Shown piece by piece: positions 34,955 to 54,899 of a stretch of DNA of 64,000 nucleotides. Where the stretch lies: positions 1 through 64,000 of the IMG/VR virus record IMGVR_UViG_3300042387_000948, one strand, 5' to 3'. The notes under the pieces are model-generated. The model had not been told where the DNA came from. It did not search any database and worked only from the letters and a program-made list of their open reading frames with translations. This DNA comes from a virus. The translations under genes and the position numbers were made by a program. Each line of letters begins with the position of its first letter. The first letter of the stretch is position 1.

Positions 34955-34958
34955 CCTT

Positions 34959-35228: not shown

Positions 35229-35263
35229 CTTTTACCAAAATATTTTTAAATTATTTTTAGACA

Positions 35264-39497: not shown

Positions 39498-39785
39498 TTA
39501 GAAAGTATTTTCCAACCAATATGAAAGATATTGTAAAGTGGCAATCTTATCCTTTAATGTGATATTCCAAATGGTTGTGTACTCACCATCACATACTACT
39601 TTGTAAACCTGCTTTTCGTATTCGGATAGCGGTTCTCTATATATGGTTACAATCTTATGGTCTCTACGGGTCTTACCCTTAAACACAATTTCATATAACT
39701 TACTCAACTGCCGGACTTGTGTAATTTGGTATTTACCCACTACACAACCTATAATCTTATCGTAGTTCTTTATAGTTAGTTTCAT
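39498..39785 (-). CDS. MLTIKN-family protein (MKLTIKNYDKIIG), 95 aa
   Basis: Last member of the MLTIKN array. It begins MKLTIKNYDKIIG, then a strand region (YQITQVRQLSKLYEIVF), LxR-type strand (IVTIYREPL) and a C-terminal helix. The function is unknown. Its ATG overlaps the stop of the 39785 gene. Confidence 0.75.
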   Translation of the reverse strand: MKLTIKNYDKIIGCVVGKYQITQVRQLSKLYEIVFKGKTRRDHKIVTIYREPLSEYEKQVYKVVCDGEYTTIWNITLKDKIATLQYLSYWLENTF

Positions 39786-40165
39786 TAGAATGGTAATTTT
39801 AGATTTGGATGATTCTCTACATAGTTTTCAATAATAGCACCAACTCTTTCCATAAATTCATATGCGGTTGTTTTCTTTAACCATTTACGTCCCAACCAAT
39901 GTTCGTATATAACTGAACCATCTTTATGTACGAATTGTAGTTTATACACATCATCCGAATCCCTATCATATGGGAATTCTTTATCCGCCTCCATACCCAA
40001 TCGTATCTCAACCCAATCAAAATCAGTTGGGACATTCTTTTGTAAGATTATAGAATAGTAATCATTACGCGTTTCTTCCACCTCCATTATGTACCAACCC
40101 CTAAAGCTATTAACTTTTGTTTTGAAAGAATTTAGTTGATACTCAAAGTTTAGTATTGTTAGCAT
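39785..40165 (-). CDS. MLTIKN-family protein (MLTILNFEYQL), 126 aa
   Basis: Begins MLTILNFEYQLNSF, has the family RGWYIMEVEE segment near residue 23 and a C-terminal helix (AYEFMERVGAIIENYV). Longer than most members. Overlaps neighbours on both sides by one base. Confidence 0.75.
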   Translation of the reverse strand: MLTILNFEYQLNSFKTKVNSFRGWYIMEVEETRNDYYSIILQKNVPTDFDWVEIRLGMEADKEFPYDRDSDDVYKLQFVHKDGSVIYEHWLGRKWLKKTTAYEFMERVGAIIENYVENHPNLKLPF

Positions 40166-40425
40166 TATAATAATTGGATTTCAGCTAATAAAGCAGTTAC
40201 ACCTTCTTCAGTTAGGTATCCCTTAACATCTCCATCGGCAATCGGATTATCGTAATGGATTTCGCCATCTTTGAATACTGCCAACTCATACAAACCCTCA
40301 CCACCTCCATAGGTATAAGGAGTTCTAACTACGGATGCACCATAACTATTCTCAAACTCTATAAGTGCTTGAACACCACTTCCCATAGGGTGTAGGTTAA
40401 ACTCTAAATCATTAAATCTTTTCAT
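40165..40425 (-). CDS. Unknown protein, 86 aa, inside the MLTIKN array
   Basis: Lacks the MLTIKN start: MKRFNDLEFNLHPMG. It carries VRTPYTYGGGEGLYELAV, a Gly-rich pattern seen in other phage small proteins, and a C-terminal helix. It interrupts the paralogue array. Confidence 0.7.
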   Translation of the reverse strand: MKRFNDLEFNLHPMGSGVQALIEFENSYGASVVRTPYTYGGGEGLYELAVFKDGEIHYDNPIADGDVKGYLTEEGVTALLAEIQLL

Positions 40426-40430
40426 ATCTA

Positions 40431-40790
40431 TTATTTTTTTAATTCGTAATCTATTACACCTACTACCGATTCTATAAATGCCTTTTTATCTTCTAACGCA
40501 GTTTTGAATACTCCACCCCCATTAATCATCTTTTGATTTAAGTATATTTTATATCGATACTGTCCTCCTAAAAACTCATCGGTTTCTCTCTCCAATATTA
40601 ACCTACCCACATTCTTTGGTCCACCCAACCCATCCGCTCGGTAATAATGAAATTGAACCGAATATTGTTTACACCCAATGAGGTTCGAATCAATATCAAA
40701 TTTGTATGTATCCTCCAACACATCGGTAATCTTCCAACCACCCCACCAACTATTAAGTAATGAGGATTTGAAATTCTTTATCGTTAGCAT
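40431..40790 (-). CDS. MLTIKN-family protein (MLTIKNFKSSL), 119 aa
   Basis: Starts MLTIKNFKSSLLNSW; family landmarks GGWKITDVLEDTY, VGRLILERE and YRYKIYLNQK follow, then a helix (EDKKAFIESVVGVI). Overlaps the 40784 gene. Confidence 0.75.
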   Translation of the reverse strand: MLTIKNFKSSLLNSWWGGWKITDVLEDTYKFDIDSNLIGCKQYSVQFHYYRADGLGGPKNVGRLILERETDEFLGGQYRYKIYLNQKMINGGGVFKTALEDKKAFIESVVGVIDYELKK

Positions 40791-41113
40791 ACCCTTTGTA
40801 ATTTTTCTAATAACTTCGCCATAGTTGTTGCAAGTAGATATGGTCTTTGTAAATCATCCCACTCAACCAAAATCTTTACTTCGTTTTTCCAAGCCGATAC
40901 AAACATTTCATATTTACCTGATTCGTTGGGAGTTCTATCTAACCAAATCTCAACATCATCTCCAATTAACCTATACACCTTTTGAACCTTTGGGCTAAAC
41001 TCACTTACCCTAAAATAAAATATATACCATATCCCATTTAGAATTACTTTGTGTGCAACTTTACCACTACACAACATACTCTTAAACTTATCTATGTTTT
41101 CAATCTTCAACAT
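40784..41113 (-). CDS. MLTIKN-family protein (MLKIENIDKFKSM), 109 aa
   Basis: Starts MLKIENIDKFKSML, with IWLDRTPNESGKYEMFV at the LxR position and a C-terminal helix (LATTMAKLLEKLQRV). Overlaps both neighbours. Confidence 0.75.
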   Translation of the reverse strand: MLKIENIDKFKSMLCSGKVAHKVILNGIWYIFYFRVSEFSPKVQKVYRLIGDDVEIWLDRTPNESGKYEMFVSAWKNEVKILVEWDDLQRPYLLATTMAKLLEKLQRVC

Positions 41114-41420
41114 ATACTAAAAATTTTGAACTAATCCAATTAAGTAATTGCTTAGGATTTTTTATGTATTGATTATGTATTTTCTTTCGGGTTCCCATCG
41201 AATTCATAATTTCAATATCATACTCAAACCCATTCTCATTTAATTGCCGATACAACTTAACGAATTGTGATTTGTGTATGGCGAACACCCCTTTGGTCTC
41301 CGGGAGAAATGCAAATTGGTAGTAATCATCCCTTTCGATAATCTCACCCATCAACCACAATGTACCCATACAATTGAATTGATTATCCTTTATCTTTTTG
41401 TAGTTCGTTATTGTTAGCAT
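41100..41420 (-). CDS. MLTIKN-family protein (MLTITNYKKIKD), 106 aa
   Basis: Starts MLTITNYKKIKDNQF at the ATG in 41418-41420, within the conserved ATGCTAACAATA start sequence; an upstream ATG adds only six residues. LWLMGEIIERDDYYQFAFL corresponds to the family core. Unknown. Confidence 0.75.
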   Translation of the reverse strand: MLTITNYKKIKDNQFNCMGTLWLMGEIIERDDYYQFAFLPETKGVFAIHKSQFVKLYRQLNENGFEYDIEIMNSMGTRKKIHNQYIKNPKQLLNWISSKFLVYVED

Positions 41421-41477
41421 AATATTCAGTATCATCAACTCTCATTCGGGTCGAATTTAAGATTTTTTTGTAAAGGT

Positions 41478-41816
41478 TTAATTTGATAGTGAATCCACAA
41501 TCCTATCCACCATCCAATTATAGAACCTTTCCCTATCCTTAAACAAACTACTCATAACGCGTACATCGTGTATTCGTATTCCCATAATCAAATCCTCAAT
41601 CCAAAGATGGTAGTACACCTCATCTTCCGCCTCTCTCTTCACCACTACCTTAAACCTCCTCTTAGCATCCCCCATAGACCAAAAGAATGTATAGAATGGA
41701 TTTTCCAAATTGCCGGAAACAGCTCCGTGTAAACCCCCATCTACTAATTTGAATCCACCAATTTGGTATCCATCATCATGTCCTATATCTCTCCGTACAT
41801 TTTTAATCCTTAGCAT
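41478..41816 (-). CDS. MLTIKN-family protein (MLRIKNVRRDIG), 112 aa
   Basis: Starts MLRIKNVRRDIGHDDG, then IGGFKLVDGGLHG, YTFFWSMGDAKRRFKVVVKR and a helix (DRERFYNWMVDRIVDSL). The IGxFKLVxxGLxx pattern also occurs in the 42415 gene; these two form a subgroup. Confidence 0.75.
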   Translation of the reverse strand: MLRIKNVRRDIGHDDGYQIGGFKLVDGGLHGAVSGNLENPFYTFFWSMGDAKRRFKVVVKREAEDEVYYHLWIEDLIMGIRIHDVRVMSSLFKDRERFYNWMVDRIVDSLSN

Positions 41817-41820
41817 GTTA

Positions 41821-42129
41821 TTAATATTTATTAACTATTTTACATAAGGTTGCTAGCATCATATTCATATCCGAAAGGTATTCCGCATCTACACAAAATT
41901 CAATTTTTTTATGCTCATAATAAAAGAAGTATCTCCATTCACCATTACCCAATGATTCAAGTGTTCTACTTAAATGAAATTCCTTTCTATTAGCAGTAAT
42001 TTTATATGCGGGATGTCGTACCCCAATTGTATAGGTGTAATCCCACTCTTCACAATATTCCACTACCCACCCTGCGGTAAACTCTAATAATCTTCCCTCT
42101 AACTTATCGTAGTTCTTAATTGTTAGCAT
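41821..42129 (-). CDS. MLTIKN-family protein (MLTIKNYDKLEG), 102 aa
   Basis: Starts MLTIKNYDKLEGRLL; AGWVVEYCEEWDYTYTIGV and FHLSRTLESLG match the family core; C-terminal helix (MMLATLCKIVNKY). Overlaps the 42123 gene by seven bases. Confidence 0.75.
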   Translation of the reverse strand: MLTIKNYDKLEGRLLEFTAGWVVEYCEEWDYTYTIGVRHPAYKITANRKEFHLSRTLESLGNGEWRYFFYYEHKKIEFCVDAEYLSDMNMMLATLCKIVNKY

Positions 42130-42413
42130 GTAAATCTATCTAATGCCTTTAACATATTCCCCATATTCAAAATCCAATCCGGAGTTACTCCGTATTGTGT
42201 AAGTTCACCATCTCCGTTCCTAAACATATACGCTACCTTACCATTACTTGTATTTGTGGGTTTCCTTTCCAAATATACCTTTATAGATGATAGGTGTTGG
42301 TGTTCTAATTTAATTTCGTACCAATTATCCGTTTCTCTACAAAAAGCAACCTCCCAACCATCTCTTCCAAGGGGTTTACCACACAGTTTATAAAAATTCT
42401 TAATTGTTAGCAT
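42123..42413 (-). CDS. MLTIKN-family protein (MLTIKNFYKLCG), 96 aa
   Basis: Starts MLTIKNFYKLCGKPL; RDGWEVAFCRETDNWYEIKL and VYLERKPTNTS carry the GWxV and LxR marks. C-terminal helix (NMLKALDRFTC). Confidence 0.75.
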   Translation of the reverse strand: MLTIKNFYKLCGKPLGRDGWEVAFCRETDNWYEIKLEHQHLSSIKVYLERKPTNTSNGKVAYMFRNGDGELTQYGVTPDWILNMGNMLKALDRFTC

Positions 42414-42414
42414 A

Positions 42415-42789
42415 TTACATATGTTTTACTATTTGATTTATCATCCAAGTATAGAACCCTATTCTATCTTTTAGGTGAGTATTTGTACCCACAGATGTAG
42501 CATAAATCAAACCGGCTTTACCATAATGAGTGAAACCTTTTTTCTCATCGTAAATCTCAAAGTTGTATATAGATGTTGTACCCTCTATTGGTTTTCTTTC
42601 TAAAAAGCATTTGAACCTACTACGCTCATCATTGTAACTCCAATAGAATGCGTAATAATCGTAGTTATCCGAAATGCCCGTTATTTCATCGGGTCGATTG
42701 TACAACCCAGCATTTACCAATTTGAATGAACCTATTACGATTCCAGTATCTGGGTCTGCGCCCTTTGTTGGGTTTCGTATTGTTAGCAT
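42415..42789 (-). CDS. MLTIKN-family protein (MLTIRNPTKGAD), 124 aa
   Basis: Starts MLTIRNPTKGADPDTG; IGSFKLVNAGLYNRP and YYAFYWSYNDERSRFK pair it with the 41478 gene. A LERKPIEGTTS segment gives the LxR mark. Confidence 0.75.
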   Translation of the reverse strand: MLTIRNPTKGADPDTGIVIGSFKLVNAGLYNRPDEITGISDNYDYYAFYWSYNDERSRFKCFLERKPIEGTTSIYNFEIYDEKKGFTHYGKAGLIYATSVGTNTHLKDRIGFYTWMINQIVKHM

Positions 42790-42792
42790 ATC

Positions 42793-43080
42793 CTATAAAC
42801 AAAATCCTTTAAGTGAACGTAATAGGTTAGATGGGTTTTGTATGAAATCAATCGTTACACTCCGTAGAGTAACACTACCATTTCTATCATAGTATTGGTA
42901 CACCTTCCTACCATCGGGAAGTACTTTAGCAATCCTACTTAGATACACAGTCTCTTGGTGTTCGGGTGAGCGTAGGTTTATAGTGTATTCTTTATTTTGT
43001 TCATAGATAGCACTCACATACCATTTACCTACTCCGATGTTATGTAGTTCCAGCTTTTTGTAATTGTGTATTGTTAGCAT
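42793..43080 (-). CDS. MLTIKN-family protein (MLTIHNYKKLEL), 95 aa
   Basis: First gene of the array transcript from the 43100 promoter. Starts MLTIHNYKKLELHN; GKWYVSAIYEQNKEYTINL and VYLSRIAKVLPDG give the family core. Preceded by the CCCC start-proximal element (plus GGGG at 43082-43085). Confidence 0.78.
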   Translation of the reverse strand: MLTIHNYKKLELHNIGVGKWYVSAIYEQNKEYTINLRSPEHQETVYLSRIAKVLPDGRKVYQYYDRNGSVTLRSVTIDFIQNPSNLLRSLKGFCL

Positions 43081-43099
43081 AGGGGTTTTGATTATGTAT

Positions 43100-43131
43100 T
43101 AAAGGTAAGTAAAAAAATCCGTATTTCCAAA
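43100..43131 (-). promoter_or_regulatory. Promoter of the MLTIKN array (TTTGG-N19-TACCTTTA)
   Basis: N19 architecture; drives ten to eleven genes down to 39498. TTTGG with a TACCTTTA -7 box. Confidence 0.8.
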
Positions 43132-43455
43132 TTAATATCCAAAATAATCCCACCAATCAGCAACCTTCAAAGATAACCATTCTATGAATAGGGGAAATGT
43201 TTTGAAGTATTTAGGATTAAAAGAGTTCCCTTCTGTGGTATGGAAGTTCACCCCATCTCCACTCCTCACTACACACACCTTATAGGTATGGTTACTCCAA
43301 TCGAAATCTAACATAATCACGTTAGAGCATTCGGATTGAGGATATATCCATACTATGGTATCCCTATGACGGTGTGCATCCAAATGATAGTTATAGAACC
43401 CTGAAGCTAGTTTGAATCCCTTAACACGTTCCGTAAAGTTTTGAGGTCCTTTCAT
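43132..43455 (-). CDS. MKxPxNF-family protein, 107 aa
   Basis: Starts MKGPQNFTERVKGFKLASG; shared FHTTEGNSFNPKYFKTFPLF and VIMLDFDWSNHTYKV segments link it to the next two genes. Function unknown; tandem triplet. Confidence 0.75.
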   Translation of the reverse strand: MKGPQNFTERVKGFKLASGFYNYHLDAHRHRDTIVWIYPQSECSNVIMLDFDWSNHTYKVCVVRSGDGVNFHTTEGNSFNPKYFKTFPLFIEWLSLKVADWWDYFGY

Positions 43456-43458
43456 ATC

Positions 43459-43785
43459 TTAATTATAAAAATGATTTCCCCACTCATTCAACTTCTCAAA
43501 TAACCATCCAATGAATGTATCAAAGGATGTGAAGAATTTTGGGTCAAATCGCCAAGGTTTAAGAATGGTGTGAAAGTTTGTACCATCTCCGTTCCCTGCG
43601 ATACATACCCTATATTCTTCCTCATCCCATCGGAACTCTAACATAATTGAATTGGTAGATTTATCTTTAGTATATATCCATACCTTATCGTCATCCCCTT
43701 CGTTATTCCCTAAATAGCAATTACTCCATGAGCCGGGCATTTTATATCCATTAATCCGTTTAGCAAAATTGATTGGTGCTTTCAT
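43459..43785 (-). CDS. MKxPxNF-family protein, 108 aa
   Basis: Starts MKAPINFAKRINGYKMPG; SIMLEFRWDEEEYRV, FHTILKPWRFDPKFFTSFDT. Close to the 43132 product, with FDPKFF at the same place. Confidence 0.75.
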   Translation of the reverse strand: MKAPINFAKRINGYKMPGSWSNCYLGNNEGDDDKVWIYTKDKSTNSIMLEFRWDEEEYRVCIAGNGDGTNFHTILKPWRFDPKFFTSFDTFIGWLFEKLNEWGNHFYN

Positions 43786-43788
43786 ATC

Positions 43789-44115
43789 TTAATTAAATAA
43801 TTCCTTATGGTCTCTGATTAGGGATGTAGTACACTCTATGAACGAATCGAATGTTCTGAACTTATGAGGAGAGAAACCCAAATCCTGCTTTGAACGAGAA
43901 TAATCCGATTTTCCACTCAAACGGCTAATGGGCACTATATCGTATTCATCCCTCTTCCAATTGAATAGTAGCATGATAGCGCCGGGCGTATTTCTCATAG
44001 GAGTTATCCAAAGAGAAGAATCCATACTTGCGATTGTAGTAAGGATATACGATTCCCCATCTACCTCCAATTCGTATCCGTGCAACTTAGTACTAAAATT
44101 TATAGGTGCTTTCAT
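43789..44115 (-). CDS. MKxPxNF-family protein, 108 aa
   Basis: Starts MKAPINFSTKLHGYELEV; AIMLLFNWKRDEYDI and GFSPHKFRTFDSFIE keep the triplet pattern. Overlap-free neighbours 3 bp apart. Confidence 0.75.
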   Translation of the reverse strand: MKAPINFSTKLHGYELEVDGESYILTTIASMDSSLWITPMRNTPGAIMLLFNWKRDEYDIVPISRLSGKSDYSRSKQDLGFSPHKFRTFDSFIECTTSLIRDHKELFN

Positions 44116-44117
44116 CC

Positions 44118-44210
44118 TTACATCATTTCAACAATCCATAGTAATATACCCAATACCAATAGGGATATAATCACCTTTATGATATCTTTGTTTCTTCCTT
44201 TATAATGCAT
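44118..44210 (-). CDS. Short single-span membrane peptide, 30 aa
   Basis: MHYKGRNKDIIKVI then a hydrophobic segment (ISLLVLGILLWIVEMM). Two bases between its stop and the next start. Too short for firm proof but fits the gene packing. Confidence 0.55.
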   Translation of the reverse strand: MHYKGRNKDIIKVIISLLVLGILLWIVEMM

Positions 44211-44213
44211 ATC

Positions 44214-44450
44214 TTATTTACGATTTAATTTAGAGATTCTACACCAACGATTAATAAACCAATATAGGTGTACCATCGATACCATAACGTTTACAATGAT
44301 AGTAGGGTTATTCTGAATTAAGAACCCATACCAAACCCACACTAAACATGCAAAGAAGTTCACTATCCGAACCAGCTTTTGTTTAGAGAACGCAAAGGAG
44401 AGTACACTCATACCCATTGCGAAGTAACCAACTATTTCTAATGTATTCAT
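44214..44450 (-). CDS. Three-span membrane protein, SemiSWEET/YgjV-like, 78 aa
   Basis: Three hydrophobic segments (IVGYFAMGMSVLSFAF, FFACLVWVWYGFLI, IIVNVMVSMVHLYWFI). The pattern YGFLIQNNPTIIVNV recalls SemiSWEET and YgjV-type proteins. SemiSWEETs move sugars as dimers; a phage copy would be odd. Assignment is by pattern only. Confidence 0.55.
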   Translation of the reverse strand: MNTLEIVGYFAMGMSVLSFAFSKQKLVRIVNFFACLVWVWYGFLIQNNPTIIVNVMVSMVHLYWFINRWCRISKLNRK

Positions 44451-44452
44451 AT

Positions 44453-44572
44453 CTATTTGTTAATCCGTTCTTTTGGCAATGTCCCATACATCAACCACTT
44501 CTCATATTGGAGGGATGATAGTATGAGGTATTGTCCATTTACCTTTAATACAAAATCCATTTCTTTGTTCAT
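44453..44572 (-). CDS. Small protein, 39 aa
   Basis: Translated from the gap: MNKEMDFVLKVNGQYL, then LQYEKWLMYGTLPKERINK. Packing between genes 44578 and 44214 and the ATG context support it; unknown role. Confidence 0.55.
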   Translation of the reverse strand: MNKEMDFVLKVNGQYLILSSLQYEKWLMYGTLPKERINK

Positions 44573-44577
44573 ATCTT

Positions 44578-44829
44578 TTATCTTCCTATTTGAAAATCAA
44601 TGTAATCCGATATTGCCATTGAGTTCCTAACGTTAATCCGTTTTTGAATCAACTCCATAGCCTCTTCATATCTATCATACGAAACCACACCTTCATTTAT
44701 ATAGTATTCTGAATTGGCTCGTTTAGGGGTGATACCCAATGCTTTTGCTCTCTCTTCAATAAACTCAACGTAACGTTCTAAGGAAAGACGTTTAATAGTT
44801 GATGGTTTCAAATCTAATCCATTTTTCAT
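44578..44829 (-). CDS. Small family protein (GVVS/GVIS type), 83 aa
   Basis: Contains YVEFIEERAKALGITPKRA and EGVVSYDRYEEAMELIQKR, matching 46524 (GVISEDRFEEAKW) and, more distantly, 34416 and 34959. Unknown function. Confidence 0.7.
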   Translation of the reverse strand: MKNGLDLKPSTIKRLSLERYVEFIEERAKALGITPKRANSEYYINEGVVSYDRYEEAMELIQKRINVRNSMAISDYIDFQIGR

Positions 44830-44841
44830 ATCTTATATCTT

Positions 44842-45063
44842 TTATAGGTCGTAAATCTCTTCTAACTTACCATTGTAGTAGGCAACGAATAGGTTATACT
44901 CCATTATCTCAACGTTGTAGTATTCTCTATTATAATCCTCTACACTTACATCCAGCCAACTAGTGTGGATACCATTCTTCTCACATAAGGCTTCGAACTC
45001 TGCAGCGTTAATGGTGGGGGCGATAGCAATCAACTCTTTCTTAGTAATCTTTGGGGTTTTCAT
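44842..45063 (-). CDS. Unknown acidic protein, 73 aa
   Basis: Starts MKTPKITKKELIAIAPTI; contains FEALCEKNGIHTSWLDVSVE and a Tyr/Asn-rich end. The ATG at 45063 is chosen because the promoter lies at 45111-45142, inside a longer upstream extension. Confidence 0.7.
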   Translation of the reverse strand: MKTPKITKKELIAIAPTINAAEFEALCEKNGIHTSWLDVSVEDYNREYYNVEIMEYNLFVAYYNGKLEEIYDL

Positions 45064-45483
45064 AATATAGAGTGGAGGGAGGGAAGGTTTGTTGTCTCTC
45101 AACCACATATTAAAGGTAAGTAAAATAAATGAGAATTCCAAACATTTAGGTAAATTTATTTTTGTATCAATCCACATAAGTAAGTTAGCTCAAGTAAGCT
45201 GGATAGGTACTATCTAAAAACCCTCCCTTTGGGGTAAACCAAGAGTCTACTCTGTCCCACAAAAAGTAAACCCCAGAGAAAAAAACCTGGCTCGGGGCGA
45301 AAAGGTATTAGGGCCCCCTTCCAAAAAAAAGTTGCAAGACCTTTTACAAGTAACCAGTCCCCCCCCACCTCGGAGTATAACCACCTACTTATTAGTGCCA
45401 CTCAACGCCTCCGCATTAGTGCCACAAACCACCACATTCTACCTTTTGAATCCAATCTATTTACGAGCCGCCTCCGCCGGGTA
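45064..45483. other. Gene-poor, GC-rich 420-bp stretch
   Basis: Besides the promoter at 45111 it holds no convincing gene. It contains GGGCCC near 45312, a run of C near 45359, two ATTAGTGCCAC copies (45391, 45415), repeated GCCTCCG motifs and the paired GGGGTAAACC (45232) and GTAAACCCC (45268). An RNA or remnant gene is possible. Confidence 0.5.
45111..45142 (-). promoter_or_regulatory. Promoter (TTTGG-N19-TACCTTTA)
   Basis: Drives the small-gene operon 44842 to 43132. Confidence 0.75.
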
Positions 45484-45681
45484 CTACAACACACCCACAA
45501 CGCCTCCGCTCTCCTCACAGTGACGGGCTACAAAATATTCTAACCGCTTTATGTGGTTAGTGATTCGGGTGGTCAGTCCCCCTATGTATTTAGGGTGTCC
45601 ATACTGAAGTGAAAAAGACAATTCACTTATTCGTTTAGTATGGTATTCGATTTTGGGTAAGTAACCATTAGTGTGTTTCAT
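45484..45681 (-). CDS. Unknown basic protein, 65 aa
   Basis: Starts MKHTNGYLPKIEYHTKRI; LTTRITNHIKRLEYFVARH is a basic helix. GC- and codon-use differ at its 3' end, which runs into the GC-rich stretch. Moderate support only. Confidence 0.5.
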   Translation of the reverse strand: MKHTNGYLPKIEYHTKRISELSFSLQYGHPKYIGGLTTRITNHIKRLEYFVARHCEESGGVVGVL

Positions 45682-45722
45682 ATATAGGGAGTTTAAATGA
45701 ATTTATTTTTATTAGTGTCCGA

Positions 45723-46310
45723 TTACAAGCTAGCCACTGCTTTAGCGATTGTAGCTTCGGTGTAGGAATATCCTTTTAATTTCTCAATTGCTTTCTCTAA
45801 AGTTAATACACCCCACACATACTTACCATCTAGCATATCTCTTAGGGAACGTTTCGCTTCAGGCCAAGTACCGAAGGGGGCTTTACCATTAAAGGAAACA
45901 TACTTAGCGTTGAACTCTAATTCAGTTCCGTTATCACTCTTACCATTCTCAGCGTACTCATAACAATCATGCATCCCATCGTAATGTCCACCTTTGAACA
46001 TATTACAGAAAGAAGCAATATCATAGTACTCTTTAGTACCATATTCTAACTCCGAACCATCAGCGTTACAAGCATACAAGTCAGAAGAAGAACCATTAGC
46101 GAAGGTAGAGGATTTACCCCATACCAACATATTAGGATATTTAACTTTCATAAATTGTTTGAACATCAAAGGAACTTCCTTACGTCCAATAGTGATAGTA
46201 GGGTTAGTAAGGGGTTCTCCCCAGTAGTTAGTAGTTCTTAAACAAGCAGAGGGTAATTCAAAAGTGATACCCATCAATTTAAATTTCGTAGTGTTCTTAG
46301 AAGAAGCCAT
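45723..46310 (-). CDS. Unknown protein, 195 aa
   Basis: Starts MASSKNTTKFKLMG. Landmarks: GRKEVPLMFKQFMKVKYPNM, WGKSSTFANGSSSD, FNAKYVSFNGKAPFG, and a C-terminal helix with SYTEATIAKAVASL. Not recognised. Largest gene of the 44-49 kb tract, behind the 46355 promoter and a conserved leader. Confidence 0.75.
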   Translation of the reverse strand: MASSKNTTKFKLMGITFELPSACLRTTNYWGEPLTNPTITIGRKEVPLMFKQFMKVKYPNMLVWGKSSTFANGSSSDLYACNADGSELEYGTKEYYDIASFCNMFKGGHYDGMHDCYEYAENGKSDNGTELEFNAKYVSFNGKAPFGTWPEAKRSLRDMLDGKYVWGVLTLEKAIEKLKGYSYTEATIAKAVASL

Positions 46311-46330
46311 AATAAGGGGGGTTTAAAGTG

Positions 46331-46369
46331 GAGAACTGTCTCTCTCACATATAATAAAGGTAAGTAAAA
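46331..46369 (-). promoter_or_regulatory. Conserved leader plus -7 region, copy 2
   Basis: Identical over 39 bp to 35173-35211; shows leader conservation beyond the promoter boxes. Confidence 0.85.
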
Positions 46370-46386
46370 GTTAGCAAATAAACAAG
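46355..46386 (-). promoter_or_regulatory. Phage-type promoter (CTTGT-N19-TACCTTTA)
   Basis: Variant promoter with AAAAGGCTTGT; drives 45723 and possibly 45484. Confidence 0.8.
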
Positions 46387-46459
46387 CCTTTTAACAATTA
46401 TTTTTGCTTTTTTTTCAATTATTTATTTAATGGTATATGCCGGGGCCTCCGCATACAAC

Positions 46460-46488
46460 AAACCCCACCAGCAGTACCAGAGGGGTTT
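46460..46488. terminator. Inverted repeat AAACCCC/GGGGTTT
   Basis: Seven-bp perfect stem with a 15-bp loop and no strong T-run. It lies in a 213-bp gene-free gap after the 46524 gene; may be a terminator. Confidence 0.4.
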
Positions 46489-46523
46489 AATCCAAAAACT
46501 ATGTTTACAAATCACTTAATATC

Positions 46524-46724
46524 TTACACGTAGTAGTTCTCAACTACCTTACGAATTGTCAATGCCCACTTAGCCTCCTCAAACCTATCCTCACTAATCA
46601 CACCATACCAAAAACAATAATCAAAGTTCACCTTCGCAGGAGTAGAACCATTCAACACCGCCATACCCTCTAACAGGTCCACATACTCAACCAAACTCAA
46701 ACCAGCAATTTCTTCGTTATTCAT
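46524..46724 (-). CDS. Small family protein (GVIS type), 66 aa
   Basis: Starts MNNEEIAGLSLVEYVDLLEG; shares YGVISEDRFEEAKW with relatives at 44578. The ATG at 46724 has the CCCC element upstream; an earlier codon at 46751 falls inside it. Confidence 0.7.
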   Translation of the reverse strand: MNNEEIAGLSLVEYVDLLEGMAVLNGSTPAKVNFDYCFWYGVISEDRFEEAKWALTIRKVVENYYV

Positions 46725-46855
46725 ATTATAAGGGGTTAAAACCAATTTCAATTTTTGGGAGGTGTCTTACAGAGATTGCTAACACCCTCAATCGGCAGGG
46801 GTGACCCGTTACCATTAAGAACACAATCAAAGCAATCAACCTCTCTCTCATATAA

Positions 46856-46887
46856 TAAAGGTAAGTAAAATTCCTGATATATACAAG
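46856..46887 (-). promoter_or_regulatory. Phage-type promoter (CTTGT-N19-TACCTTTA)
   Basis: Variant promoter with AAAAGGCTTGT; drives the 46524 gene after a ~130-nt leader. Confidence 0.8.
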
Positions 46888-46904
46888 CCTTTTAACAAAT
46901 ATTT

Positions 46905-47147
46905 TTAAAAGAAAAATGCGTTCCATACATACTCCAAAGGTCTCTCATACCTCTCACCAGCTCTATGGTTATTGGAAGCTGAAAAGGAGTGAGCTGGGTA
47001 GATGGATTTAACTACCTCCATCGTACACATCCCAGCGTACTCATTAATATGTACTAACTTAGCACGTAAGGTAGGAGAGAAGTTCTCTGGTGTATCCTCG
47101 CCTACTACCTTAACTAAATCCGTAATCTTACTATCTGAATATCTCAT
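46905..47147 (-). CDS. Unknown protein, 80 aa
   Basis: Starts MRYSDSKITDLVKVVGED; Cys/Met/Ala-containing centre (HINEYAGMCTMEVVKSIYPA). Not recognised; CCCC element lies upstream of its ATG. Confidence 0.65.
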   Translation of the reverse strand: MRYSDSKITDLVKVVGEDTPENFSPTLRAKLVHINEYAGMCTMEVVKSIYPAHSFSASNNHRAGERYERPLEYVWNAFFF

Positions 47148-47158
47148 AATGAATGGGG

Positions 47159-47398
47159 TTAAGAAATGAATTTTAAAACATAAGAAGGAATACCAGCTTC
47201 CAAACCTCTTCCGGCTGCCAAGGCCTCCTCAACAGCGGAAGTCTTATACAATCCGATAAACTCTCTAATCGCTTGACGTTGAGCCTTAGTACGATATGGA
47301 ATGCGGAATCTTTCAAAACAAATGATTGGTGTTCCAGCCTTAATGGTTCTACCTTTGTTAGCCGGAGTGTTGATGTAAATGGTTTGTTCGTTGTTCAT
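47159..47398 (-). CDS. Unknown protein, 79 aa
   Basis: Starts MNNEQTIYINTPANKGRTIK; RTKAQRQAIREFIGLYKTSA is a basic helix. Middle gene of the 47630 transcript. Confidence 0.7.
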   Translation of the reverse strand: MNNEQTIYINTPANKGRTIKAGTPIICFERFRIPYRTKAQRQAIREFIGLYKTSAVEEALAAGRGLEAGIPSYVLKFIS

Positions 47399-47408
47399 AT
47401 ATAGGGGA

Positions 47409-47582
47409 TTAAAGTTTTACGTTATTAAAGGTTTCAATATGTGATAACAAATCGTAGATGGCATCCTCAATATCTTCACCAACATAGGGTTTGATTTTCA
47501 TCTCATCACACATAGGTTGGTACATCATATCTTCAAGGATTATCTCATCGTAACGTTCATCAAGCAAAAGGGAAGAAATCAT
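47409..47582 (-). CDS. Small acidic protein, 57 aa
   Basis: Translated from the gap: MISSLLLDERYDEIILEDMM, acidic helices, ends FNNVKL. First gene after the 47630 promoter with the CCCC element upstream of its ATG. Confidence 0.65.
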   Translation of the reverse strand: MISSLLLDERYDEIILEDMMYQPMCDEMKIKPYVGEDIEDAIYDLLSHIETFNNVKL

Positions 47583-47629
47583 AACAAAGTGGGGTTAAAG
47601 GAGGAGAACCATCTCTCTCTCACATATAA

Positions 47630-47661
47630 TAAAGGTATGAAAAAGACATGGAAATTCCTAA
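47630..47661 (-). promoter_or_regulatory. Promoter (TTAGG-N19-TACCTTTA) with conserved leader
   Basis: N19 architecture and a TATATGTGAGAGAG-type leader like those at 35173 and 46331. Drives 47409, 47159 and 46905. Confidence 0.75.
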
Positions 47662-47702
47662 CAAAATATATGACGATGTGTCAGGTTATGTGTGACTATT
47701 TG

Positions 47703-47882
47703 TCAGGCTAATTTGGGCCGGATTAATTCTTCGAAAGCCATTTCCAAAGCATCTTCATATGGACACCCATCTCCACCGGAGGAAAGCACAGATTGTATTT
47801 GTTTGGCATACGATACCAACTCCTCATCTAATCCCATTGAGGCTGCGATAAGCAACATTGATTCCCTTGTGTATTTAATCAT
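47703..47882 (-). CDS. Small protein, 59 aa
   Basis: Translated from the gap: MIKYTRESMLLIAASMGLDE, helical, ends EELIRPKLA. Its ATG lies within the end of the 47875 gene (overlap of 8 bp), suggesting coupling. Confidence 0.65.
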   Translation of the reverse strand: MIKYTRESMLLIAASMGLDEELVSYAKQIQSVLSSGGDGCPYEDALEMAFEELIRPKLA

Positions 47883-48168
47883 CTTTCCATTTTAGAGTTT
47901 CTACTTCACAAGCCTGAAGCTTGAGTAATTCTTTATTTGCATTATGTAGTATTCTCTTCTGGTCTTCAATCTTAGCTTTCAGCAACTCAAGTGCTCCTGC
48001 TTTCCTCCCCCATCTCTTAGGATAGATTAGTTTGGGCCCGATTGGTAAATAATATTTTCGAATGGATGTGGGCTCATCTGAATGAGGATTCGTAACAACG
48101 TAGTACTCCCCCGTCTTATTATTAGTGTATAGTTCAGCCACCAAGTGCATCTGCCTTGTTTTTTCCAT
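47875..48168 (-). CDS. Unknown protein, 97 aa
   Basis: Starts MEKTRQMHLVAELYTNNKT at 48168; a coiled-coil-like end (LLKAKIEDQKRILHNANKEL) and Cys-containing tail. The ATG is chosen because the promoter is at 48174-48205. Confidence 0.7.
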   Translation of the reverse strand: MEKTRQMHLVAELYTNNKTGEYYVVTNPHSDEPTSIRKYYLPIGPKLIYPKRWGRKAGALELLKAKIEDQKRILHNANKELLKLQACEVETLKWKDD

Positions 48169-48173
48169 CAGTA

Positions 48174-48205
48174 CAAAGATACGAAAACTTCCTGATATAT
48201 CCAAA
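48174..48205 (-). promoter_or_regulatory. Bacteroidota-type promoter (TTTGG-N19-TATCTTTG)
   Basis: Consensus elements; drives 47875 and 47703. Confidence 0.85.
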
Positions 48206-49004
48206 CGAATTCGGAATTATTTTGCTAACTTGCTCACCGGTCTCACGTTAGGCTGGAATATGGAATATATCACCCGCCCTCCCACACCTTAAAAATACGA
48301 AATAAATTCCATAAAGTCAAGTCTTTTTCGATTTATTTTCAGCTTTTTTTTATATTTTTTTGGGATGGGATTGCACCGGTATCGTGGATTCGTGAATATG
48401 GAATTGTACTTTTCTAATATGGTGCCGCTCTACTTAACATAATGTAAATTATATAACAAAAAATGATGGTACAAAACTAAGATTGGGCCCGTTTCTTAAA
48501 AAAGTACAACGTTTTTTCGCTTGACCCTTGGGAATTCTGCTGTCATCGCTTAGAATAATACAATTGTAAACTAGCTAATCACATATGTAAATTTCGCACA
48601 ACTTATATGTTATGGGGATTTTTTCAGCTTATCGGAATAAAAAACGTATCCAGCTCATCGGACTTGAATAAAAAACGTATTCAAAATTCCGAGTAAAAAA
48701 CGTATCCAAAACCGTTGGCTTGAATAAAAAACGTATCCAAAAATAGTGTGGAAGCTCGGGCTTGAAAAAAAAATTTGCTCTCAAAAGGTGTGTGTAGTAG
48801 CCTATCGGGTAATGTGATATATTAACTAGCTATCTTTTTGGTGTTATTACCCTATAACTTTAGGTAATTTTAATACTGCTCTATGTGGGTGTGATATGGA
48901 TACGATTTTTAACCACTCCATATATGATAATTCTTCGATAGTTGAATTCTAAGCGATTTTGGATAAAAAACGTAGATAATTATTAGTGTGTAATAATAGT
49001 GCTC
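48206..49004. other. 800-bp gene-free region with iteron-like repeats
   Basis: No ORF of note on either strand. It contains direct repeats of an AATAAAAAACGTATCCA unit (separate entry), an inverted copy and AT-rich stretches. Possible replication origin, terminus or a regulatory region. Confidence 0.6.
48636..48739 (+). repeat. Four direct repeats AATAAAAAACGTATCCA
   Basis: Copies at 48636-48652, 48667-48683 (one mismatch), 48692-48708 (one mismatch) and 48723-48739, spaced 31, 25 and 31 bp. Related copies: inverted at 48898-48914 and a partial at 48962-48976. Confidence 0.9.
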
Positions 49005-49148
49005 TTAGGCGTTGATTAAGAACCACATAAAGAGCAGAGCCGCAATCCCTTTGAGGGTGTAGTATATAAGGATTACCCACCAGTATTTCTTAACAAGTTC
49101 CTTGCTAATCTTCCCTATCTTTTTTAACCTTTCTTTCAGGGTTCCCAT
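49005..49148 (-). CDS. Small single-span membrane protein, 47 aa
   Basis: Translated from the gap: MGTLKERLKKIGKISKELVK, then a hydrophobic segment (WWVILIYYTLKGIAALLFM). Overlaps the 49136 gene; unknown. Confidence 0.65.
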   Translation of the reverse strand: MGTLKERLKKIGKISKELVKKYWWVILIYYTLKGIAALLFMWFLINA

Positions 49149-49255
49149 TGGTTATCATCTTCTTTCTTAGTTGGAAATAGGTAGTGTGATATCGTTATTA
49201 GGGTTATAATCGTTATCCCTATCCCTGCTATCATTCCGTATAAAAAGTTTTCCAT
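49136..49255 (-). CDS. Small single-span membrane protein, 39 aa
   Basis: Translated from the gap: MENFLYGMIAGIGITIITL with charged tail (TKKEDDNQWEP). The stop overlaps the next start. Confidence 0.65.
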   Translation of the reverse strand: MENFLYGMIAGIGITIITLITISHYLFPTKKEDDNQWEP

Positions 49256-49281
49256 ATTTTAGGTTGATTTAGTGTTGTTAG

Positions 49282-50784
49282 TTATTCCGTTAGGTAGGGA
49301 GTTCTATCTATACTACCTATACCTATACTTAGTTCTTTTATTGTCTTATTATTATTACTAGTATTTTTAGCTGAATTTATTTTATTAGGTGTGTCCGGCT
49401 TCGAGTGGATTTCGTCCATACTTTCTAATATCCTGTCTTTGTACTTGTCTAAAAAATCACTACAATTATCATAATGCCATTCATTCAATTGATATCTTAG
49501 TATCCTATCATGCAATGCTCCGTTGTCCGAAAAATCCATTGGCATTAGATTCTTATAGTAATTCAATCTATAAATGTCATCTTCGGTTTCTGCGTATGTT
49601 TTTGGTATTATATGTTGCAATGCCCACTTACCAATACCATGTCCATGATTATCCCAAGTCATCCAAGGTTCAAACATCCCTTCAATATAATCCCTAAATA
49701 CATCCCACTCTAGACCCAATATATCTTTTGTACGAAATGATTTTGACTTTCCCTTCAATGCCGAATTAACATATACCTTAACCAATGCATGTAATTTAAC
49801 CATTGGGTTTGTATGATAGTTTATTCTACCTTGTATGTTACCTGCTTCATAGTATGTATCCCTCCTATATTGTAACGAGCATTGCTTACAAATATTCCTT
49901 CTAAAATCATTTTCATGTTTTTCTGTCTCACAGTGTTTACACCAATTATGCCCTTTCTTTTTTGGATATGGACACCTTGCACCAGCTGTTTTATATGTAA
50001 AATAACTTATCCTATCCAATTCCAATTTTAATTCGTTTGTTAAATATTCCTTACCAAATCCATTTCGTAACCAATGATACCCATATGATATTGGGGTTTG
50101 ATTCCAACTATCATAATTTTTATACTCACCACTTTCAATAAAGTCCGAAACCATTTTAACACGCTCCAAACATTCTTTCAGTTTATCAGCTTTTTTTTGA
50201 TTTTGTTGGGATTCTATCTCTAGTAATTTAACCTTTTTTTTATGTACAGATTTAGTTTGAGTATGGCATATAGAACATTTACCTTCTTTTATAATATACT
50301 TATAAGGTCTTTTTATAATATGCCCATTTGTACATTCAAATTGTATTTTCAAAGGATATCCCACCTTATGCTCACTACTTATAATTTGTTTTACATATGA
50401 TAACTCTCCAATTTCACTAATTCTTTCAGCATCTCTTTCCTCTTTTTCTAATTGAATTCGGTTACTATATTCATCTGCAGATATCATCCAATTGGGTTTA
50501 CAATACTTAACAAGCCAATTACAACTTCTTTTGTTTGGCATTGTATCTAAATTACGCAATTCTTTGTAGGATGAAACTTTACTTGCTAAATTTATATAGT
50601 ATTTTATTTCATCTATTTTAGATAATCCATTATACAATAATCTTAAATGCTTATTTGCTTCTCTTTTTAGCTTTTTATTTTTTTTATAATTTATATCATA
50701 GCATTTATCCGAACAAAAACTTTTTCCTGCTGGATTGGGATTATTACACTCCTTGCAATTTAAATTTTTCCTTATTTTAGTCAT
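49282..50784 (-). CDS. HNH-type endonuclease with zinc-finger motifs, 500 aa
   Basis: N-terminal Cys-pair zinc motif (CKECNNPNPAGKSFCSDKCY), a second CxxC (CSICHTQ) and a third (CKHCETEKHEND). The C-terminal part matches phage homing-type HNH proteins: ILGLEWDVFRDYIEGMFEPW, MTWDNHGHGIGKWALQHIIP and LNYYKNLMPMDF. It likely cuts DNA and may be mobile. HNH residues are partly altered (QHIIP), so activity should be treated as likely, not certain. Confidence 0.8.
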   Translation of the reverse strand: MTKIRKNLNCKECNNPNPAGKSFCSDKCYDINYKKNKKLKREANKHLRLLYNGLSKIDEIKYYINLASKVSSYKELRNLDTMPNKRSCNWLVKYCKPNWMISADEYSNRIQLEKEERDAERISEIGELSYVKQIISSEHKVGYPLKIQFECTNGHIIKRPYKYIIKEGKCSICHTQTKSVHKKKVKLLEIESQQNQKKADKLKECLERVKMVSDFIESGEYKNYDSWNQTPISYGYHWLRNGFGKEYLTNELKLELDRISYFTYKTAGARCPYPKKKGHNWCKHCETEKHENDFRRNICKQCSLQYRRDTYYEAGNIQGRINYHTNPMVKLHALVKVYVNSALKGKSKSFRTKDILGLEWDVFRDYIEGMFEPWMTWDNHGHGIGKWALQHIIPKTYAETEDDIYRLNYYKNLMPMDFSDNGALHDRILRYQLNEWHYDNCSDFLDKYKDRILESMDEIHSKPDTPNKINSAKNTSNNNKTIKELSIGIGSIDRTPYLTE

Positions 50785-51137
50785 TATAATCTTCCTTCCA
50801 TTTCTGCCACTCCATCCAGCATATGTGCCAATACCTTCCCCACTCTCATCGCATCATCTAATGGTATTGTGTTAGTGATTTGCTTTCTCATTCCAGTCAT
50901 CGCTTCACATACCATATCCACATAGTAGTGTGATTTACTATCATCATACATATCCTCTATCACTTTCGTTTTCTTTAGGATATGGATTTGGTATCCATCC
51001 CACACTATATTAGGGTCAAACTGCAATCCAAATGTATATGCCTCATCGCATTCTCTCCTATATTTGATAGTCCATATGGTACTGCTTTCAGCAAAATCAA
51101 TCAGTTTGTTTGGGTTTTCTATCTTAATCTTTTTCAT
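50784..51137 (-). CDS. MLTIKN-family relative (MKKIKIENPNKLID), 117 aa
   Basis: Starts MKKIKIENPNKLIDFAES; paired with the 51142 gene (IQNPNKLIDF). IWTIKYRRECDEAYTFGL matches the family core. Starts one base after the HNH gene stop. Confidence 0.7.
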   Translation of the reverse strand: MKKIKIENPNKLIDFAESSTIWTIKYRRECDEAYTFGLQFDPNIVWDGYQIHILKKTKVIEDMYDDSKSHYYVDMVCEAMTGMRKQITNTIPLDDAMRVGKVLAHMLDGVAEMEGRL

Positions 51138-51141
51138 ATTA

Positions 51142-51492
51142 TTATAATACTTGTCTAGCTCCAGTATGGATTTGATTAAATACCCTTCTCATATCCTTAA
51201 ATTCTTCTACTCTTAAAAATTTAGTGCATCCTCTTGCAAGGGGTACGTTTACATTATTACAATAGATTTTTACATATTGATGCCTCAAAAAATCATTCGG
51301 GTCATACATTTGTTGTGTCTCCTTATAGATTTGTACTAATATCTTTATGTTAGGGTTTTCTTTATCCGCTAGTACATACTCATATATACCTCCGGTTGGG
51401 TTCTCTCCTACATAATGAATTTTCCAACTTGTTAAACTCTTGCTTACAAAATCAATCAGTTTGTTTGGGTTTTGGATGTGTATCTTTTCCAT
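51142..51492 (-). CDS. MLTIKN-family relative (MEKIHIQNPNKLID), 116 aa
   Basis: Starts MEKIHIQNPNKLIDFVSKS at 51492 (an ATG three codons earlier is weaker). SWKIHYVGENPTGGIYEYVL follows. A second copy of the NPNKLID subgroup. Confidence 0.7.
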   Translation of the reverse strand: MEKIHIQNPNKLIDFVSKSLTSWKIHYVGENPTGGIYEYVLADKENPNIKILVQIYKETQQMYDPNDFLRHQYVKIYCNNVNVPLARGCTKFLRVEEFKDMRRVFNQIHTGARQVL

Positions 51493-51493
51493 A

Positions 51494-51847
51494 CTATACA
51501 ATATTTTTGGGTATAACTTTTTCTAACATCAATCCTAATCTCATTACCATTCCCTCTACGGTATTCAATTCTTGCATTGAAAACCACATCTGTTCTGCTT
51601 TATCCTCTTCCAAATTCCATGCCCATAACTCATATAAAAATACCCTATCATCGGGATTATATTTGACAGGTTCTCTTTTCAATTGTATCTCCGCATGTGT
51701 GAATCTACCATTACTTACTAATTCGAATATGTATTTATCCCCAATATCTTCAACACTTTGAACTGCCCAACCATAAGAATTTTGTATCCACTTCGAATAC
51801 AACTGTCTACCAAATATCTTATCTATGTTTTTTATCGTTAATTTCAT
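51494..51847 (-). CDS. MLTIKN-family protein (MKLTIKNIDKIFG), 117 aa
   Basis: Starts MKLTIKNIDKIFGRQL; YGWAVQSVEDIGDKYIFEL and IQLKREPVKYN carry the family marks; C-terminal helix (GMVMRLGLMLEKVI). Distant from the main array by ~8 kb. Confidence 0.75.
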   Translation of the reverse strand: MKLTIKNIDKIFGRQLYSKWIQNSYGWAVQSVEDIGDKYIFELVSNGRFTHAEIQLKREPVKYNPDDRVFLYELWAWNLEEDKAEQMWFSMQELNTVEGMVMRLGLMLEKVIPKNIV

Positions 51848-51849
51848 GC

Positions 51850-52332
51850 CTACGGATTTAATACCCTTTCCATTAAATTACATATTCTCCGTATAACCTC
51901 TCCCATATTTCGTAAATCTCCCTTACCCAATGCTTCTACTTTTAGTTGGTTTGGTTTCTCTTCATAAGATAGTTCCCAGCAATCTTTTAAGACTATAGGA
52001 TAAGGTATTTTCTCTCTATTTAAGTTTAAAGAGAATTGTTTTATCTTACCATCGGGTGTACTGATTTCTACTATAAACTCATACCTATTATCTATCCACT
52101 CATACACATCGAATATCCTTCCTATTGTTAGTATGTTCCCTCCTATATGGAATGTCCTTCCTACTATCTTATTTATGTTTTGTATCGTTAGCATATCTGA
52201 ATTCTTTTTATCATCTCTGTCCCACATTGATTTGTGTAACTCTAAAATTTTTTGTTGGGTATCATAGTTAGCTCGTATCCTATCCATTTCCATTTGCATC
52301 TGCAACTTTGCCCACGCTCCCGTTAAACTCAT
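51850..52332 (-). CDS. MLTIKN-family protein with N-terminal extension, 160 aa
   Basis: The MLTIQNINKIVGRTFHIGG start lies at residue 47, after a coiled-coil-like helical extension (MSLTGAWAKLQMQMEMDRIR). An internal ATG at 52194 with the ATGCTAACG context could give the short family form. Either an in-frame fusion or two starts in one frame. Confidence 0.7.
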   Translation of the reverse strand: MSLTGAWAKLQMQMEMDRIRANYDTQQKILELHKSMWDRDDKKNSDMLTIQNINKIVGRTFHIGGNILTIGRIFDVYEWIDNRYEFIVEISTPDGKIKQFSLNLNREKIPYPIVLKDCWELSYEEKPNQLKVEALGKGDLRNMGEVIRRICNLMERVLNP

Positions 52333-52826: not shown

Positions 52827-53261
52827 TTAAAAAGGTAATGAGTGCTTTCCATTTAAGCAGGATTCTATGTAATCCAATACAAATTGTGGGTCTTTTACTC
52901 TATCTACATCTACCCAATCGCTTCCGTTATTCTCACCACTCCATCTGAACAAAACCTGCTTTGTATTTGTAAATTTATTGTGTTCCATCTCTCTTTCAAT
53001 TTTCAGAACTCCTTTCTGCCCTAACACATCTTCGGCTCTCCAAGAATATTCCAAAGATTCATCAGTCATTGGTATGTGGAATACTACCATATTAGTTCTT
53101 TGAAATTTGGTAAGTTTTTCAGGGTTCTCCAATCCCAATAAAGGTGTTATTGCCGGTCCTTCGTTTATAGCATCTTTAATATACCCCACACCATAACCTC
53201 CACTATTCAGATACCTTCCCAATGTGGTAGCCATATCCCAATTATTATCTTTCTGCTCCAT
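52827..53261 (-). CDS. Unknown protein, 144 aa
   Basis: Starts MEQKDNNWDMATTLGRYL; landmarks LKIEREMEHN and VLFRWSGENNGSDWVDVD. The LKIERE segment may be a distant version of the MLTIKN-family LxR strand, not proven. Overlaps the 53245 gene. Confidence 0.7.
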   Translation of the reverse strand: MEQKDNNWDMATTLGRYLNSGGYGVGYIKDAINEGPAITPLLGLENPEKLTKFQRTNMVVFHIPMTDESLEYSWRAEDVLGQKGVLKIEREMEHNKFTNTKQVLFRWSGENNGSDWVDVDRVKDPQFVLDYIESCLNGKHSLPF

Positions 53262-53979: not shown

Positions 53980-54242
53980 AATCCTTCAGTACCATCAATT
54001 TCTTCTGGTAGTTCTAATTCAACACTCATAAATTCATTGTGTTCTTCGATACTCCTATCAAACTTATATATTTTGTAATCAGTATCCCCTACCATACCAA
54101 ACTCTTCCTCAACTGCTAACTCCGATGCTAACAAATCGATATCGGATTGGTCTGGTTCGTTTTCATACACACAAATGTGTTTGATTTTCATTTCATTACC
54201 ATCCACCACATCGGCGAATACAACTGCGTAGTTTACTTTCAT
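53976..54242 (-). CDS. Unknown acidic protein, 88 aa
   Basis: Starts MKVNYAVVFADVVDGNEMKI; a beta-alpha pattern with acidic tail (ELELPEEIDGTEGL). Not recognised. Adjacent to the NlpC/P60 gene. Confidence 0.65.
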   Translation of the reverse strand: MKVNYAVVFADVVDGNEMKIKHICVYENEPDQSDIDLLASELAVEEEFGMVGDTDYKIYKFDRSIEEHNEFMSVELELPEEIDGTEGL

Positions 54243-54694: not shown

Positions 54695-54899
54695 CGATAT
54701 TATATTTCTCCACCTCTTCAGGTGTTGCAAATGGTTCTGGTGGTTGCTCTGCCCAATATTGCCTTTCCAACTCTTCAGTCCACAAAGCATCTTGCTTATC
54801 TCTCAACATATCGTGCTCCAATTTGTTCATCCGTTCCTCAACTCTCATCATTCGGTATATCAAAAATATCCCAATAATTAATAATAAAATTACCTCCAT
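54681..54899 (-). CDS. Single-span membrane protein, 72 aa
   Basis: Starts MEVILLLIIGIFLIYRMMRV with a hydrophobic segment, then acidic helical region (EERMNKLEHDMLRDKQD) and acidic tail. Overlaps the NlpC/P60 start. Confidence 0.7.
   Translation of the reverse strand: MEVILLLIIGIFLIYRMMRVEERMNKLEHDMLRDKQDALWTEELERQYWAEQPPEPFATPEEVEKYNIDGKK

Follow-up and report, generated by a model that had tools for sequence, protein, structure and literature searches.

The first 64 kb of the 207,029-bp virus record IMGVR_UViG_3300042387_000948, a stretch of 64,000 nucleotides referred to here as the window, contain on the minus strand between 39498 and 52332 a long run of small genes whose products share the opening M-L-x-I-x-N. 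A preliminary description of this locus took them to be an expanded and divergent family of paralogues, which raises the questions of whether the likeness extends beyond the first few residues and what use a phage could have for so many versions of one small protein. The array region encodes about 14 to 18 small proteins of one fold, a previously undescribed family, and its members may serve as interchangeable binders of host proteins.

All 14 open reading frames (ORFs) named in the description, which nevertheless counted "at least 13", are present on the minus strand where it placed them. They are designated here A01 to A14 in order of position. Profile hidden Markov models were trained on 13 members at a time and tested on the genome's 781 ORFs of at least 45 amino acids (aa). 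Each left-out member appeared directly behind the 13 training members and before all other ORFs (E 2e-13 to 5e-4), while the best non-member in these tests had an E of 0.007-0.26. When the bodies were shuffled and the first 8 residues kept, the real score was reached in 0 of 300 trials for each of the 14 members; thus, the likeness exceeds the shared start. The homology signal of the body alone is weak for the genes at 40431, 40784 and 51850. Together, the leave-one-out profiles and shuffled-body controls reject a chance likeness of gene starts and show common ancestry of the 14 members. Because blastp alone joins the members only partly, the family looks unrecognisable by simple comparison. 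A profile search of the other 143 kb of the genome found no further clear member. Two borderline ORFs, 52827-53261 (E 0.014) and 79794-80303 (E 0.0036), both beat all reversed decoys, the best of which reached 0.23.

Ten family genes lie in tandem in 39498-43080 and four more at 50784-52332. The tandem arrangement with short overlaps stands as first described, but the count of nine in one operon does not, since there are ten genes plus an unrelated insert. In order of coordinates, with leave-one-out E values, the first block consists of A01 (39498-39785, MKLTIKN..., 4e-8), A02 (39785-40165, 8e-6), the insert (40165-40425), A03 (40431-40790, 4e-4), A04 (40784-41113, 5e-4), A05 (41100-41420, with a likely ATG start at 41420; 2e-8), A06 (41478-41816, 5e-6), A07 (41821-42129, 2e-13), A08 (42123-42413, 3e-13), A09 (42415-42789, 3e-4) and A10 (42793-43080, 2e-8). 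The second block contains A11 (50784-51137, 6e-7), A12 (51142-51492, 4e-7), A13 (51494-51847, 4e-10) and A14 (51850-52332, 2e-7), in which a helical-looking N-terminal extension precedes a family domain starting at 52194. Neighbours mostly overlap by 1-14 bp or are separated by gaps of 1-5 bp; a larger gap falls at 41420-41478. The insert is a small gene of unknown function that matches PHROG 4074 (E 2.5e-11) and holds the same position in the arrays of the related phage contigs L014, L015, L016 and L034.

The conserved columns and a structural model indicate what the members have in common. An AlphaFold2 model of A08, built from 46 sequences (predicted local distance difference test score (pLDDT) 93.0, predicted template modelling score 0.84), has a short helix at residues 7-10, strands at 20-27, 31-38, 42-49, 60-66 and 71-76, and a C-terminal helix at 84-92. 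On this model, the family can be described with confidence as single-domain proteins of about 100 residues, in which a five-stranded antiparallel meander is flanked by a short N-terminal helix and a C-terminal helix. In an alignment of 77 members, I4 (76/77), N6 (73/77) and Y32 (76/77) are nearly invariant; W20 (50/73) is followed by V, I or L at position 22, and L48 occurs together with R50 in 67 of 77. The conserved columns, given as the commonest residue with A08 numbering, are I4, N6, L10, G12, W20, V22, E27, Y32, I34, L36, V46, L48, R50, Y62, V76, L81, F87 and L91. The shared start, G-W-x-V-like segment, L-x-R strand and C-terminal helix of the original description are thus all seen in the alignment or the model. 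Conserved positions are core, turn or cap residues (N6, G12, E27, R50, D83), and a contact between E27 and R50 is possible. Because conservation covers the turns and the inward side of the strands, outward-facing residues of the strands vary and no conserved catalytic set was seen in the alignment, the pattern is that of a structural scaffold.

Neither the sequences nor the fold could be assigned to anything known. Searches of the 77 members against Pfam, PHROGs and PADLOC gave no family to which two or more members matched, the best single matches having E values of 0.0075, 0.0024 and 0.00066, respectively, and a PDB sequence search with family members gave nothing at E<=10. Membership of a known family in these databases was therefore rejected, and the family is as unrecognised as it first appeared. 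Foldseek comparison of the A08 model, for which a known fold was taken to require E<=0.001 or a convincing template modelling (TM) score, gave nothing significant in PDB (best E 0.25) or in BFVD (best E 0.063, TM 0.43). The same holds for a model of a neighbouring gene, B2, against PDB (best 6l7o_V, E 0.086, TM 0.46-0.48), and identity with a known fold was rejected.

B2 (43459-43785) is one of three minus-strand genes just upstream of A10 with the start MKxPxNF, with B1 (43132-43455, MKGPQNF) and B3 (43789-44115), that probably share the A-family fold. B3 matches B1 and B2 by blastp (E 6e-14 and 2e-13). The model of B2, built independently on an alignment of seven B sequences only (pLDDT 88.7), has a helix at 7-11, five strands and a helix at 88-107, the same order of elements as A08, and B1 is expected to have the fold of B2. 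Profile-profile comparison of B with A (hhalign) gave an E of 1.4e-4 with a probability of only 53%, for which reason the B genes are graded only as probable relatives; they were not among the matches listed for the A4 profile (HMMER). The borderline ORF at 52827-53261 (minus strand), designated C1, is a possible distant relative (hhalign E 0.0017, probability 15).

How widely is the family distributed? The neighbouring phosphoesterase and the DNA polymerase served as entry points to relatives, whose whole records were then searched with the profile. An initial scan with single proteins had matched only the same phage from another assembly. The family was found in 9 of 18 phosphoesterase relatives (33, 21, 9, 9, 8, 7, 5, 3 and 2 matches), two of which have common members with the same spacing and might represent one phage, and in 2 of 16 polymerase relatives, with 12 matches each and the same members in both. 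Many of these records are fragments, so that absences prove little, and a search through neighbour genes could have overlooked copies in unrelated phages. With up to 33 copies in one relative, the expansion is broader than was first described. The family was not found in the nearest phage records, Microcystis phage Mel-JY01, Flavobacterium phage immuto and LR756508, or in that of cyanophage S-PM2. A bacterial origin was rejected, as there was no match at E<=1e-4 in 695 Bacteroidota genomes (299 from a single order and 396 from a single phylum, taken around a Chitinophagaceae metagenome-assembled genome (MAG)) and none in 7 genomes reached through a TonB-dependent receptor gene of the phage. 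As far as the searches extend, the family appears confined to a clade of uncultured T4-like phages. Several members in this clade are extended at the N-terminus, by a hydrophobic stretch that resembles a membrane segment (L068 5447-6100), by Cys-rich sequence (L015 4110-4565 and L072 4505-5116) or by leaders that look helical or are rich in Pro (L069 12086 and L074 8465). The extension of A14 is kept in L034.

The array genes diverge faster than their surroundings. Relative to L034, whose phosphoesterase is 96% identical, the median nonsynonymous divergence (dN) is 0.14 for array genes and 0.045 for the other alignable genes of 28-63 kb (P 0.0014), a difference of about threefold; the median synonymous divergence (dS) is 0.58 versus 0.29 (P 0.005), and omega (dN/dS) is 0.34 versus 0.18. 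The raised dS indicates exchange with more distant relatives or older alleles. Pairwise omega lies at 0.13-0.52 in all nine orthologue pairs, and positive selection, not seen in any of them, was rejected. An omega below 1 indicates that each protein is maintained, and the array genes are thus under purifying selection. These values also bear on the idea that the genes are for the most part neutral copies passing through, none with a strong role of its own. The tandem arrays and the frequency of loss would suit that idea, but all 14 window ORFs are open, the tested members show purifying selection and subtypes are conserved across phages, so that it is already disfavoured and highly improbable.

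Gene content also turns over among close relatives. L034 lacks orthologues of A04, A05, A07, A09, A10 and B1-B3, and counterparts of A09, A04 and the B genes recur in L015 or L016, which are relatives at 70% identity. The best match of each window member is a member from another phage rather than one from its own genome, which argues that the subtypes are older than these phages. Recent tandem duplication as the main source was not seen in the window, and the subtypes appear to be old and swapped rather than freshly duplicated. A different explanation is that the paralogues share one fixed intracellular role, as nucleic-acid-binding regulators or as subunits of one phage complex, their number reflecting subunit specialisation. 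It would account for a single fold kept by all members under purifying selection, a partly kept gene order and subtypes that are each common to several phages. However, copy number ranges from 2-4 to 33 (some records being fragments), members come and go where neighbour genes are 93-96% identical, unlike the subunits of a fixed complex, and the isoelectric points of the members span about 5.2-9.5. A fixed role is therefore considered unlikely, and a set of exchangeable host-protein binders is preferred.

The start of the family genes is conserved at the DNA level as well. The block ATGCTAACNAT has nine occurrences in the 207 kb, eight of them at family starts. The second codon, Leu2, is CTA in 66 of 89 members pooled across records, against a background of 12%; CTA makes up 7-15% of Leu codons in these records. 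The pooled members are not independent, since related phages share genes, but paralogues of a single genome differ greatly from one another, and in the window alone Leu2 is CTA in 9 of 10 (P 1.5e-7). CTA is not favoured in other Leu-start genes of the same phage, and two more distant records, L073 and L074, do not show the preference. The family starts are thus conserved beyond what the protein needs. Three gene-content junctions between close relatives fall at the same block. In one, the gene that precedes A05 is followed in L034 immediately by A06, and homology switches inside L034 8142-8152, where the first 11 bases of A06 lie; the other two are A10 followed by A09 versus A10 followed by A08, and a YgjV-like gene followed by A08 versus A10. 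Three junctions are few, selection for intact ORFs would favour the same breakpoints, and the block may have a role in translation. Because T4 rearranges at microhomologies of 6-10 bp around a counter-defence locus (PMC9391042), the idea that the block acts as a seam for recombination is plausible. The fuller proposal, of an arsenal built on a single scaffold in which dozens of early binders per genome have different host targets and ATGCTAACNAT is conserved as a seam for exchange of whole genes, is tentative and, taken as a whole, rather doubtful.

Two promoter classes can be read from the 207-kb genome, a host-type class, TTG-N20-TAnnTTTA/G, and a T4-late-like class, TATTTATA. TATTTAT occurs in 31 of 109 upstream regions versus 9.4 expected, with sites some 20-70 nt ahead of the genes for the tail sheath, for a 3322-aa product and others; this motif resembles the T4 late element TATAAATA. 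TTG-N19-21-TAnnTTT[A/G] occurs in 23 of 109 versus 1.7 expected, and it matches the published Bacteroidota -33/-7 consensus, TTTG/TANNTTTG (PMC6847099). Scoring with a position weight matrix (PWM) placed early-type promoters on the minus strand before A10, the first A gene behind such a site (43100-43130, TTG-N20-TACCTTTA, PWM 31.9), and upstream of the B genes (45111-45141, 37.4); the nearest one upstream of the A14-A11 block lies at 55896-55926 (24.8). The PWM was trained on this genome, which leaves the regular-expression enrichment as the only independent statistic. No late-type site was found on the minus strand of the window from 33.3 to 64 kb or in the arrays of the scanned relatives. 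Early-type sites were not found near every array of the relatives. Since the arrays have early-type but no late-type sites, they are predicted to be expressed early, from promoters read with a Bacteroidota sigma factor.

The same promoters weigh on the suggestion that these are virion proteins injected with the DNA, with the conserved start as a packaging signal. The suggestion derives from the T4 internal proteins, a divergent set of inhibitors with a shared N-terminal packaging signal (PMC12373910). It is weakened mainly by the early-type promoters and the absence of late-type sites at the arrays. In addition, homology and fold span the whole length of the protein, and the start is itself part of the ordered structure (pLDDT 92 for A08 residues 1-10). 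A virion role is thus very unlikely.

There is about an even chance that the arrays encode an early, cassette-swapped set of host-protein-binding scaffolds, each blocking a different target. Host RNA polymerase of the Bacteroidota type would read the array promoters, and each member would attach through its variable surface to a different host protein, or a different variant, and block it, acting as a defence inhibitor or takeover factor. The repertoire would shift mainly as whole genes are gained, lost or exchanged, the breakpoints falling at the start block; the genes would then diverge under purifying selection, and one scaffold would serve as a kit of interchangeable binders. A binder rather than an enzyme is suggested by the kept core and turn columns, the variable outward strand positions, the lack of a catalytic set and the N-terminal fusions. 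Genes for an RNA ligase, a P-loop kinase and a phosphoesterase lie near the array. These resemble the genes with which T4 repairs tRNA and so counters anticodon nucleases, and by association such neighbours may hint, weakly, at counter-defence. The original suggestion of diversification directed at the host is accordingly supported indirectly, by early-type promoters, patchy gene content, variable strand surfaces and tRNA-repair-type neighbours, while its strong form is unsupported, given the low omega and subtypes that are old rather than fresh duplicates.

Several points count against blocking of host targets. Diversity of host targets, binding and inhibition are all inferred, the promoter classes come from motifs only, with a matrix trained on the same genome, and Foldseek found no match to a known inhibitor fold in PDB or BFVD. 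The wide range of isoelectric points suggests no common type of ligand, no pairwise positive selection was seen, and much in the early genes of T4-like phages is not counter-defence. Small soluble early proteins would also fit with action against competing phages, by superinfection exclusion or inter-phage inhibition, and repertoires that vary between relatives would suit this; nothing specific indicates phage targets, and such a role is quite unlikely.

Large phages carry many small genes of unknown function, and the array belongs with the shuffled early accessory regions of T4-like phages. The protein family is new, and as a gene array of one fold, found in a clade of T4-like phages, it is unusually large. 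The T4 internal proteins Ip1-Ip3 inhibit GmrSD restriction enzymes, each tested one blocking one GmrSD variant, and likewise make up, in a T4-like phage, a variable set of small proteins that have diverged but keep a common N-terminus; however, they are described as apparently non-homologous, packaged and injected (PMC12373910), whereas the array family has one fold over its whole length and early-type promoters. In segmental amplification of T4 tifA/dmd, short direct repeats allow the phage to change the copy number of a counter-defence gene quickly, but the copies are recent and identical and the sites ad hoc (PMC9391042), in contrast to the old divergent copies and recurrent start block of the array. 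The ORFanage of cyanophage S-PM2 and the promoter-stem-loop (PeSL) shuffling regions of T4-like phages are similar, with a long run of small unknown genes that is strongly shuffled among relatives and lies near a host-like early promoter (PMC4503421). The S-PM2 record contains no family member, paralogy is not mentioned in that paper, and PeSL regions use a promoter-terminator cassette (PMC4503421), whereas the candidate seam here is a coding start. As most array genes overlap or lie no more than 5 bp apart, there is no room for promoter-stem-loop cassettes between those. The SIRV2 early genes, including Acr, are also small and rapidly evolving, share an early promoter motif and have an inferred anti-defence role, but SIRV2 is an archaeal virus with separate promoters for most genes (PMC11065993), unlike these long polycistronic one-fold arrays. 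A review of jumbo phages gives Tad1 as the sole anti-defence protein so far described in them (PMC13282480). A scaffold with 33 copies, predicted to be early and with subtypes common to relatives, would provide a ready panel for screening Bacteroidota defences, and the start-block breakpoints offer a testable idea of how phages swap single genes without breaking ORFs.

The phage itself is large, uncultured and T4-like, and encodes a B-family DNA polymerase (PHROG 262), a tail sheath (PHROG 23), a DnaB-like helicase and an RNA ligase of PHROG 562. Among annotated phage records, those nearest to it are Mel-JY01 (polymerase 51%, sheath 48% identical), an uncultured 484-kb phage (sheath 44.5%) and immuto (sheath 35.5%). 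The host is probably a freshwater member of the Bacteroidota, since the promoters fit that phylum and a TonB-dependent receptor encoded by the phage is closest to those of Chitinophagaceae and Bacteroidia MAGs, with up to 50% identity to cellular proteins. This Oar-like outer-membrane receptor gene (28078-31338, plus strand, 1086 aa) lies on the strand opposite most genes, accompanied by 31379-31918 and 31930-32325, and an AAA_28 gene adjoins it. It is 97% identical in L014 and L034, and thus it is not an assembly chimera.

Other genes flank or separate the array blocks. A 78-aa YgjV/SemiSWEET-like membrane protein (44214-44450, minus strand; Pfam E 3e-4, below its cut-off) has a conserved place at the array head in L014, L015 and L034. 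Between the two blocks, a 500-aa gene that looks HNH-like by eye (49282-50784, minus strand), with only weak zinc-finger Pfam matches, overlaps the A11 stop with its start; no counterpart was found at the L034, L014, L015 or L016 loci. An NlpC/P60 peptidase gene (54239-54790, minus strand; Pfam E 1.2e-21) lies inside the predicted early region. The places 34907-35247 and 46318-46906 have short direct repeats in common (67-91 bp, with 85-90% identity), and the intergenic stretch 45402-45483 is locally GC-rich (TACCCGGCGGAGGCGGCTCG...) in a genome that is otherwise about 33% GC.

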